DNA of 49,507 nucleotides, from positions 1-49,507 of the forward strand of contig CANGSR010000002.1 of the NCBI GenBank assembly GCA_947456055.1. Reading direction: 5' to 3'. Source of the DNA: Chitinophagaceae bacterium. Its GTDB lineage: Bacteria; Bacteroidota; Bacteroidia; Chitinophagales; Chitinophagaceae. The notes under the pieces were generated by a model. The model ran no database searches. It was given only the letters and a program-made list of their open reading frames with translations, and was not told the origin of the DNA. This document shows positions 42,764 through 45,706 of this stretch, piece by piece (the first letter of the stretch is position 1; every line of letters begins with the position of its first letter). Both the position numbers and the translations under genes were made by a program.

Positions 42764-43735
42764 ATGAATTTTGATTTAAGCCCTAAACTTTTTACTTTTA
42801 ATGATTCAATGAAGCTATCCCAATTCAATGCCCACCAATGGCCTCCCACCCGTTTCCTGTTCGCACAGGCTAAAAAACTGGTGATTCCCGGTCTCAATGG
42901 GGCTACATTATACGATTTGGGTAGTTTCTTTTACCATGAATTCTATAACCTCAATCTTTTTGAGAGAGCGGCTGTTGCTACCTACAATTTCCTGATGGCT
43001 ATACCCTCCATTTTTCTGTTTATTTTCTCACTCTTTCCCTACCTACCATTTAAGCATATTGACAAGACCATTTACAACGTTATCCAACTAATCACACCAA
43101 ATCGCAGTATTTACCTCAATGTAAGGAATGTAATTGCCGATTTTTTAGCCAAACAACACCATAGCTCCTTATCATTTAGTATTCTATTGGTTATCTACTT
43201 CTCATCAAGCGGGGTTGCAGGGTTCATGGCTTGTTTCGATAAAAGCCAAACATTGTATAAGAAACGTGATTGGTTCCAGCGCAGGTGGTCGGCAATAAAA
43301 CTCACGTTAATGCTATTGGTGCTCAATACAGCAATTATTACCTTATTAATCCTGCAAAACATACATCTTAACCCAATTATTAAGTCTGCTTTTCATAGTG
43401 TTTTCCTAATAAAGACGATCAGTTTCGTATTGCTTATTTTATTGATTTTCATGGCTATATCGCTCATCTATACCTATGGGCCATCACTCACTCACCGATT
43501 TCCTTTCATCAGTAAAGGATCGTTTTGTGCTACCCTCGCATCTGTTACTGCAACCCTCATTTTCTTTTATCTGGTCAATAATTTCCTTAACTATAATCAA
43601 GTATATGGCTCGTTAGGCACACTAATTGCCTTTATGGTTTGGGTTTGGATTAATACTGTTATAATTTTGCTGGGCTTTGAGCTCAATGTAAGTTTACATT
43701 CGGGAAAACTGTCAGGGAAAAGGATGAATAAATGA
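42764..43735 (+). CDS. YihY/BrkB-family membrane protein
   Basis: The 323-residue inner-membrane protein has six hydrophobic helices. Family marks are YDLGSFFYHEFYNLNLFERA, AVATYNFLMAIPSIFLFIFS, YFSSSGVAGFMACFDKSQTLYKKR and the ending LGTLIAFMVWVWINTVIILLG. The family was once labelled ribonuclease BN in error; its function is not established, with envelope or lipid transport suggested. The stop overlaps the start of the next gene (ATGA), so the two are translationally coupled. Confidence 0.88.
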   Translation: MNFDLSPKLFTFNDSMKLSQFNAHQWPPTRFLFAQAKKLVIPGLNGATLYDLGSFFYHEFYNLNLFERAAVATYNFLMAIPSIFLFIFSLFPYLPFKHIDKTIYNVIQLITPNRSIYLNVRNVIADFLAKQHHSSLSFSILLVIYFSSSGVAGFMACFDKSQTLYKKRDWFQRRWSAIKLTLMLLVLNTAIITLLILQNIHLNPIIKSAFHSVFLIKTISFVLLILLIFMAISLIYTYGPSLTHRFPFISKGSFCATLASVTATLIFFYLVNNFLNYNQVYGSLGTLIAFMVWVWINTVIILLGFELNVSLHSGKLSGKRMNK

Positions 43736-45162
43736 GGAATTTAATAAGTAATGTGAACTATTTGAAGGCAATATCCAATCGCCCTACACAATTCTTGCGT
43801 CAAATCTTCATCCTCCTACTCATCACATCATTCTTTACAGCCTGCGACCAAAGTGAAAAAGTACCCGAGAATGTAACCTTTACCCAACATGTAGCCCCCA
43901 TACTCTATAAAAACTGTACCATCTGCCACCGCCCGGGAGGCAATGCCCATTTTTCGTTGGTGACCTATGAGGATGCCCGCAAAAACGCCGGCTCAAATGC
44001 CTTTGTGACCAAAGAAAAAATGATGCCCCCATGGCCAGCCGACCCTCACTATACCGAGTTTATAGGCCAGCGTATGCTAACCGACAGGGAGATTAAAATA
44101 TTGGGTAAATGGGCCAGCGAAGGTGCACCAATGGGCCCTGCCGATGCCCTGCCCAAACTACCCCAATACCCTATTGGTTCCACCATTGGCACACCCGACC
44201 TAAGAATACCGGTAATACCCACTCACCTACCTGCAAATAGTTTGGATAAATTCCTGCTGGTAAAAGTACCCTATGAACTCCCAAACGACACTTTTGCTGC
44301 CCTTATAGAATTTATGCCCGGCACCCATAATGTGGTGCACCATGTAAATGGCGACTTTGTAAAATATAAAGGCGAAGAAAAGACCAATGTCTTCGAAGGG
44401 CAAAAGGTATTTGATATGGTATTTGATACCACTTCTCTGGTGGGTGCTTTTAAGCAAATGGGCTTACCCAATGATAATGGCACATTCCCCCATATGCAAA
44501 AGTCGGTGGTAAACTACCTCCCTGGGGCGGCAGGACAATTATACCCTACCGATATAGGTGGTTATTACCTGCCCCGCAAAGGTGTATTCCTGCTCAATGA
44601 TATCCACTATGGTTTTACCCGAAAGGAAGACATCATTGATAGTTCCTACATCAATATCTTCTTTGCCAAACTCCCACCTAAACGCCCGGTACAGGAGTTT
44701 CAACTAGGCACGCTTAGCTCATTTGGCAATGCACCGGTAGAGCCCGATATGAATATTGAACCGAACACCGTAAAAAATGTGTGGAGTAAATTCAAGGTAC
44801 CCGAAGATATATCTATATTAACTATCAATCCCCATATGCACCTGTTGGGAAAAAGCTTTAAGGCATATGCACTGAAAACCAATGGCGACACCATCAGGCT
44901 TATATCCATCCCCCGCTGGGATTTCAGTTGGCAATATTTTTACACCTTCAAAAAGATGGTAAAAATTCCTGCCGGCAGCACCATAGTAGCCGAGGGCGTA
45001 TACGACAATACCCGCCAAAACCTCAATAATCCCTTTAGCCCACCCCAGCTCATCACCGACCAGTCGGGCAGTATGAAAGCCACCGACGAAATGTTCCAGT
45101 TTATCGTTACCTATCTACCCTACCAGAGTGGGGATGAGAATGTAAGTTTGGAGAGGAAGTGA
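43732..45162 (+). CDS. Heme c plus copper type II monooxygenase-like lipoprotein
   Basis: The 476-residue protein has a lipobox-like leader (FFTAC, Cys38). A single-heme cytochrome c module follows, with CTICH at 62-66 and a candidate axial Met in KMMPPWP (97-98). The larger part (about 150-476) carries what look like all copper ligands of the PHM/DBM family: HH at 203-204 (HNVVHHVNG), H292 (NDIHYGF), HMH at 368-370 (NPHMHLLGKSF) and M454 (ATDEMFQF). PHM-type enzymes hydroxylate C-H bonds using two copper sites and an electron donor; the fused heme could supply electrons. Substrate unknown. Its start overlaps the YihY stop by four bases. Confidence 0.78.
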   Translation: MRNLISNVNYLKAISNRPTQFLRQIFILLLITSFFTACDQSEKVPENVTFTQHVAPILYKNCTICHRPGGNAHFSLVTYEDARKNAGSNAFVTKEKMMPPWPADPHYTEFIGQRMLTDREIKILGKWASEGAPMGPADALPKLPQYPIGSTIGTPDLRIPVIPTHLPANSLDKFLLVKVPYELPNDTFAALIEFMPGTHNVVHHVNGDFVKYKGEEKTNVFEGQKVFDMVFDTTSLVGAFKQMGLPNDNGTFPHMQKSVVNYLPGAAGQLYPTDIGGYYLPRKGVFLLNDIHYGFTRKEDIIDSSYINIFFAKLPPKRPVQEFQLGTLSSFGNAPVEPDMNIEPNTVKNVWSKFKVPEDISILTINPHMHLLGKSFKAYALKTNGDTIRLISIPRWDFSWQYFYTFKKMVKIPAGSTIVAEGVYDNTRQNLNNPFSPPQLITDQSGSMKATDEMFQFIVTYLPYQSGDENVSLERK

Positions 45163-45184: not shown

Positions 45185-45706
45185 TTAAATATTTAGCCTC
45201 CCATATATCCACTCCAGCATTTCAGGATTTTGCTCATAATAATCCCTCACAAACCACCTTACATGTTCATCATCTGTATTGGCAATGAGCTTTATTTTCG
45301 CCTTAGCCTCAGGTGTGCCAATATCATGTAATGCCCTTATACATTTGCGCTGTAAAGCACGAACTTCGTCCCAATCATAAATTATTAGGGAAGCTTTGTA
45401 TAGGCTGTCCACTATTTCAGGGCCACCAATATCAAACCAAAGTATCGTAACTATATCCTCCTCTTTTTCATGCCACCTAAAAGATAGGAGGTGGTCTAGG
45501 ACTTTCAGGTAGGATTTATCTACCCCGTCACTATCTGCGGCTATAAGCAAATACTCAACTATGTCCCTATCTTTCAGTTTGCAGGCTCCATAAAAGCAAT
45601 CAATTATCTCCTGGGTATATTCAAATTTCCCAGAAAAGAAACCAGAAAATTCTTCAATGGTTATTTCATCATTTACTGCTTTGGTAAGGTTTTGTTGGAA
45701 AGTCAT
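45185..45706 (-). CDS. Helical (HEAT-like) hypothetical protein
   Basis: The 173-residue soluble protein without a signal peptide is built of short helices. The C-terminal part (ALHDIGTPEAKAKIKLIANT then DDEHVRWFVRDYYEQNPEML) looks like HEAT-type repeats, in which a paired-helix unit follows the number of sequence changes per site. Acidic overall. The function is unknown; similar proteins serve as immunity or scaffold proteins, but nothing here supports either. It lies 36 bases after the stop of mutS2 and reads in the same direction, so co-transcription is likely. Confidence 0.62.
   Translation of the reverse strand: MTFQQNLTKAVNDEITIEEFSGFFSGKFEYTQEIIDCFYGACKLKDRDIVEYLLIAADSDGVDKSYLKVLDHLLSFRWHEKEEDIVTILWFDIGGPEIVDSLYKASLIIYDWDEVRALQRKCIRALHDIGTPEAKAKIKLIANTDDEHVRWFVRDYYEQNPEMLEWIYGRLNI

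Follow-up and report, generated by a model that had tools for sequence, protein, structure and literature searches.

The window, a stretch of 49,507 nucleotides from a contig of a Chitinophagaceae bacterium, encodes a putative lipoprotein of 476 amino acids (positions 43732-45162; all features below lie on the + strand unless stated otherwise), predicted to consist of a one-heme cytochrome c domain fused to a two-copper oxygenase core of the kind that animals use for peptide hormones and noradrenaline. This assignment draws on the reading of the open reading frame (ORF), on Pfam and on fold and profile comparisons with the peptidylglycine and dopamine monooxygenases (PHM and DBM, or DBH). We favour, with some reserve, the interpretation that the protein is an exported dicopper monooxygenase wired through heme c, supported by a redoxin and acting on a substrate that is probably not a peptidylglycine. 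The coordinates of the ORF and every residue named in the initial annotation (C62-T-I-C65-H66, M97/M98, H203, H204, H292, H368-M369-H370 and M454) were verified by script and are exact. The chain contains three cysteines in all, the lipobox C38 and the heme-binding C62 and C65.

Identification of the predicted copper core

Residues 153-467 (44188-45132) are predicted to form a double jelly-roll core like that of PHM and DBM. The Pfam domain Cu2_monoox_C (PF03712) scores 29 bits in the window protein (cut-off 23), and it matches 47 of 48 family members at E ≤0.01; the N-terminal domain PF01082 has no match in the window protein and matches 21 of the 48 at the same threshold. When the solved structures were searched with the single sequence, no relevant match was obtained, but a profile of 48 family rows retrieved human DBH (E 1e-14) and rat PHM (E 3.6e-10).

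Available text of PMC6123673 gives H107, H108 and H172 as the CuH ligands of PHM, describes a water network linking Q272 to Q170, H108 and the peptide substrate, and sets the two coppers of PHM about 11 Å apart. The profile alignment, for which PHM numbering is the chain index plus 44, anchored on H107/H108 and counted along the printed alignment, sets the VHH motif of the window protein against H107/H108, HY against H172 and HxH against H242/H244, and the DEM stretch against M314 at moderate confidence only (about 0.6). Accordingly numbered, the predicted CuH ligands are H203 and H204 (44338-44343) together with H292 (44605-44607), and the predicted CuM ligands are the two histidines of H368-M369-H370 (44833-44841) and M454 (45091-45093). 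An invariant WQ places Q401 (44932-44934), present in 132 of 132 homologs, opposite PHM Q272. The alignment to DBH ends short of the Met ligand of that enzyme.

A structure prediction, which the initial annotation had put forward as a check of the copper site, yielded a model that falls on the PHM/DBM fold. The AlphaFold model was built on a 14-row alignment; the best of five predictions has a mean pLDDT of 76.1 and a pTM of 0.73 (worst, pLDDT 58.9), with residues 444-452 beside M454 scoring below 50. The first 31 Foldseek matches of this model are all PHM or DBH. VIA ranked PHM (5wja) at Z 18.5 with an rmsd of 3.2 over 258 residues and DBH at Z 18.3, followed by PNGase as the next-best fold at Z 8.4. 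Sequence alignment and model agree on a PHM/DBM-type core, and the alignment sets six predicted copper ligands at the positions of those of PHM. The initial claim of a heme joined to a complete copper site of this type is supported by family conservation, by the profile alignment to PHM and by the fold match, and holds as a prediction.

The likeness to PHM, which forms part of PAM, extends to the fold, the six copper ligands and the equivalent of Q272. The window protein differs from PHM in being a bacterial lipoprotein with a fused heme c and only three cysteines, and in lacking the substrate residues of that enzyme, which we take to be R240, N316 and Y318.

The predicted heme domain

Ahead of the copper core, residues ~45-150 (43864-44181) are predicted to form a mono-heme cytochrome c domain with the attachment motif CTICH at residues 62-66 (43915-43929). 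Modelled in isolation (111 residues), the domain reached a pLDDT of 83.8. Foldseek returned no significant match for this isolated model, and VIA placed it closest to the monoheme cytochrome PccH with Z 6.2 and an rmsd of 2.8 over 80 residues, in a range (Z <8) which, by the tool's own note, may reflect merely a common arrangement. This VIA comparison covered 150 chains, seven of which scored Z ≥2, and all five listed entries are c-type heme proteins. The Pfam family Cytochrome_CBB3 matches the window protein with 12.1 bits, under its 27-bit cut-off, and 13 of 48 family members at E ≤0.01; furthermore, the 48-row family profile weakly matches the heme region of hydrazine synthase (E 0.012).

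The initial annotation had noted a Met near CTICH. M98 (44023-44025), which stands in an invariant MPP motif, is the predicted distal heme ligand; M97 varies across homologs. The conservation of C62, C65, H66 and M98 together with the model points to a one-heme cytochrome c domain fused to the copper core. DBM, the best profile match, likewise carries an additional domain ahead of its copper core. The N-terminal domain of DBH is a DOMON domain, and the extra domain of the window protein, being helical and bearing CXXCH, is unlike it.

One alternative would make the heme domain catalytic by itself, as a small peroxidase, with the copper core binding the substrate. A peroxiredoxin-like redoxin does accompany the gene, and the VIA matches of the heme model include a peroxidase (9qdt, Z 4.5); against this, the predicted distal Met is invariant (132 of 132 homologs), a feature more readily expected of a heme that transfers electrons than of an open catalytic site, and we regard this reading as the least probable of those weighed here.

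Conservation of the predicted ligands

All ten predicted heme and copper ligands are present in 127 of 132 aligned homologs. C62, C65, H66, M98 and H292 occur in every one of the 132, H203 and H204 each in 131, and H368 and H370 each in 130; M454 is found in 127 of the 128 homologs that are ungapped at this position. The alignment contains 28 His, Met or Cys positions, and exactly the ten ligands among them are at least 95% conserved, the most conserved non-ligand being M369 (106 of 132). As the ten ligands had been picked beforehand from a single sequence, their conservation is a genuine test, albeit one in which relatives were gathered by their likeness to the window protein, which leaves copies without the sites under-sampled. 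By locus origin, the set comprises 82 Bacteroidota and 50 Acidobacteriota sequences and leaves out two fragments of the broken gene L129 and copies with identical last 250 residues. Three loci (L106, L110 and L117) have no row of their own, owing to the removal of repeats or to the choice of ORFs, though their family ORFs show CXXCH and PHxH. Of the five homologs short of the full set of ligands, three (L012, L052 and L115) end, with the contig or the fetched stretch, before M454. In an earlier set of 74 homologs (72 Bacteroidota and two Acidobacteriota, the latter being the copies at L013; the 285-residue fragment L050 was removed), the two heme cysteines, the heme His and Met and five copper histidines are invariant.

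This pattern bears on the possibility that the enzyme fold is vestigial and that the protein chiefly senses copper or redox state, or carries copper. Two of the 132 homologs (L146 and L131) are degenerate, having lost copper ligands and retained the heme motif. Moreover, the TPR repeats of long Acidobacteriota versions suggest scaffolding: strong TPR repeats occur in five of ten versions scanned, most of them long, and a weak match in one more. However, the 132 homologs, from two phyla, conserve the two copper sites as well as Q401 and the motifs WQxxY and NxxxN, as would be expected for catalysis and not for storage, making a sensor or carrier decidedly unlikely. Four of the same ten Acidobacteriota versions fall short of PF03712 at E 0.001.

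Export and gene neighbourhood

The N-terminus reads as a signal peptide with a lipobox (43732-43845), with C38 (codon 43843-43845) predicted to be acylated, so that the mature protein would comprise residues 39-476. All 39 close orthologs have this cysteine in the alignment, and 23 of them show a strict lipobox pattern ahead of the heme motif. A type IX secretion tail was identified in 23 of 48 family members (E ≤0.01).

Upstream, the window encodes a YihY/BrkB-family inner-membrane protein (42764-43735; PF03631, E 6.9e-41), whose stop codon overlaps the start of the heme-copper gene as ATGA (43732-43735). The translational coupling described in the initial annotation is present in the window in the form of this overlap, but the arrangement is confined to one genus: YihY precedes the gene in 22 of the 35 close orthologs for which 1 kb or more of upstream sequence is available, and adjoins none of the six mid-distance homologs inspected. 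It is therefore treated as a local arrangement, and YihY was rejected as functional partner.

A survey of gene neighbours, likewise suggested in the initial annotation, revealed a different recurrent neighbour. The commonest neighbour cluster encodes a redoxin, found beside 32 of 74 homologs: downstream (0-951 bases) in 21 close orthologs, and upstream (≤175 bases) in six of six mid-distance and five of 29 distant homologs. Where the sequence downstream of a close ortholog extends for 900 bases or more, the redoxin follows in 23 of 36 cases. The window genome has its redoxin away from the copper gene, on another contig (C205), and hence out of sight of the initial annotation. All 35 same-genus genomes contain a redoxin match at E 1e-20, with at least 54% identity in 30 of them. 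In a later set of 73 copies, mostly from Acidobacteriota and often with short flanks, eight copy-redoxin pairs occur at five places, with -24 to 43 bases between the genes. At one locus the two are joined: L128:826-3318 encodes a single polypeptide in which a redoxin (residues 15-221) is joined to the heme c and copper portions and to a tail with a weak TPR match.

These partners belong to the redoxin/AhpC-TSA-like proteins (PDB 2ywi, 3u5r and 2cvb), and their sequence relatives of known structure include ResA and a probable thiol-disulfide isomerase besides uncharacterised proteins. Their own feature is a pair of cysteines: among 39 aligned redoxins, that of the window genome included, one Cys is present in all 39 and a second, C-terminal Cys in 38, with one gap. 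Judged by sequence, the recurrent partner of the family is a putative secreted redoxin with two conserved cysteines. In the window itself, the place taken by the redoxin in the 23 close orthologs is occupied by a small ORF (45185-45706, - strand) whose product weakly matches HEAT repeats (E 0.028). Elsewhere, family copies at L149:381-7559 and L150 adjoin SusD-like genes, and L149 also encodes an FG-GAP/ASPIC_UnbV protein.

The window genome also contains a paralog on contig C1 (L061:7731-9317), whose type IX secretion tail scores 26.2 bits, just under the 27-bit cut-off. Two ORFs away from it lies an ORF (L061:3608-5227) with NHL-like repeats recognised by eye. The PAL lyase, which acts after PHM in animals, belongs to this class of fold. 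This neighbour, the PHM fold and ligands, and the peptidases encoded close to two scanned homologs (L131 and L062) would be in keeping with a true peptidylglycine alpha-hydroxylating enzyme that amidates bacterial peptides. The window protein, however, has N366, Q456 and I458 at the positions of the presumed substrate-carboxylate residues of PHM, R240, N316 and Y318, and the family as a whole is variable there; furthermore, no NHL- or PAL-like cluster was recognised by eye among the recurrent neighbour clusters of the 74 homologs. With the substrate residues replaced, peptide amidation is unsupported as a function and highly improbable. Since these residues are not conserved, the substrate is probably not a peptidylglycine.

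Distribution of the family

Homologs were identified in 45 of 60 genomes searched, the window genome included, comprising 35 of 35 from its genus and ten of 25 others. Larger samples of Bacteroidota, which again count the window genome, gave matches to a 14-row profile (E 1e-10) in 23 of 296 genomes and to PF03712 (E 0.001) in 29 of 292. PHM-like cores are present in 41 of 199 Acidobacteriota genomes (27 of 199 by PF03712), and one Blastocatellia genome of this phylum has 17 matches, two being stretches of one gene. As the profile searches of the 296 Bacteroidota and 199 Acidobacteriota genomes scored only five or seven candidates per genome, copy numbers are lower bounds. None of 14 well-known control genomes matches PF03712; likewise, no relatives of the window protein were found among plasmid records, and none in viral contigs searched with an Acidobacteriota homolog as query. 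One Acidobacteriota contig (G354 contig C9, L131:10252-16329) carries four CXXCH family copies in tandem, the last without copper ligands.

The heme fusion appears to be general across the loci sampled. We collected 60 loci as the best matches of the two PF03712 searches in Bacteroidota and Acidobacteriota, some of them previously seen and the window among them. The 62 ORFs at these loci, among the matches listed, comprise 50 with CXXCH and a match to the heme profile, nine with CX3-4CH and three that are broken or truncated; a complete heme-free PHM-like ORF was not found among them. Eleven of 61 core ORFs, lacking CXXCH or the heme-profile match, had been candidates for heme-free bacterial PHMs, and were rejected when eight proved to be CX3-4CH proteins and three defective. 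At L204, where no heme motif was read, the ORF is cut off where the fetched sequence ends; at L174 a stop codon splits the gene, and the ORF read is its latter half, CXXCH lying in the first; and L159 has CXXCH immediately upstream in a different frame. The ORF at L182, missed by the profile and read by hand, has CX4CH. Judging from these sequences, heme fusion looks like the rule for PF03712 proteins in the two phyla sampled. The CX3-4CH proteins (L182, L186, L187, L192, L197, L198, L201, L207 and L208) form a second PHM-like subfamily, marked by this unusual heme motif, in which seven of nine have CATSGCH and the copper motifs HH, HxH and EM are retained.

Proposed function and electron flow

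Cellvibrio japonicus offers a comparison for the role of the heme, in which the cytochrome domain CjX183 and the copper LPMOs are separate proteins and the LPMO copper site is of another kind; the window protein, unlike this pair, would hold heme and PHM/DBM core in a single chain. What the two systems may have in common is a small His/Met mono-heme cytochrome c serving a copper monooxygenase. According to the accessible part of PMC8981238, the His/Met mono-heme cytochrome c domain CjX183 reduces copper LPMOs, which makes heme-to-copper chemistry reasonable. By analogy, it is plausible that the coppers of the window protein are supplied with electrons by its heme instead of by ascorbate. The heme would accept electrons singly from a donor in the periplasm or the respiratory chain and hand them over to the coppers, and O2 would be activated at the CuM-type site (H368, H370 and M454), leading to hydroxylation of a C-H bond in a substrate other than a peptidylglycine. 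The redoxin may support this reaction by reducing thiols or peroxide, or may aid in copper or heme loading.

Electrons might also flow in the reverse direction, the copper domain oxidising the substrate and the heme exporting electrons to the respiratory chain, so that the protein would be a dehydrogenase or oxidase. Heme c domains elsewhere drain electrons from a catalytic site, e.g. in TsdBA (PMC8981238, accessible part), and no dedicated electron-donor gene was recognised by eye among the recurrent neighbours. The retention of the CuM-type HxH and Met and of the Gln of the PHM water network speaks against this direction, as does the use that PHM makes of its coppers, each of which spends a reducing equivalent on O2 (PMC6123673, available text). 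Reversed flow is unlikely on this evidence, though the most serious of the alternatives to a monooxygenase reduced through its heme.

PHM and DBM are textbook enzymes, and their ascorbate supply and long-range copper-to-copper electron transfer are still debated. Electron tunnelling in proteins has a limit of about 14 Å. A natural fusion that feeds single electrons through a visible heme could allow this transfer to be tracked spectroscopically within one chain. The bacterial heme-fused PHM/DBM family is apparently unstudied: a literature search by title or abstract start, with subscription journals mostly outside its coverage, found no account of a fusion between heme c and PHM/DBM. PHM is spoken of as widespread in eukaryotes in the accessible portion of PMC8812541, and the part of PMC3494510 at hand contains nothing specific on bacterial PHM homologs.

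For the family as a whole, a tentative generalisation, judged slightly less likely than not, is that bacteria possess a large secreted branch of PHM/DBM enzymes that would be independent of ascorbate, connected by heme c (CXXCH or CX4CH) to the respiratory chain, provided with a dedicated redoxin and, in some Acidobacteriota, present in many copies per genome. If this holds true, such an ascorbate-independent bacterial branch would be a source of new oxidative chemistry.
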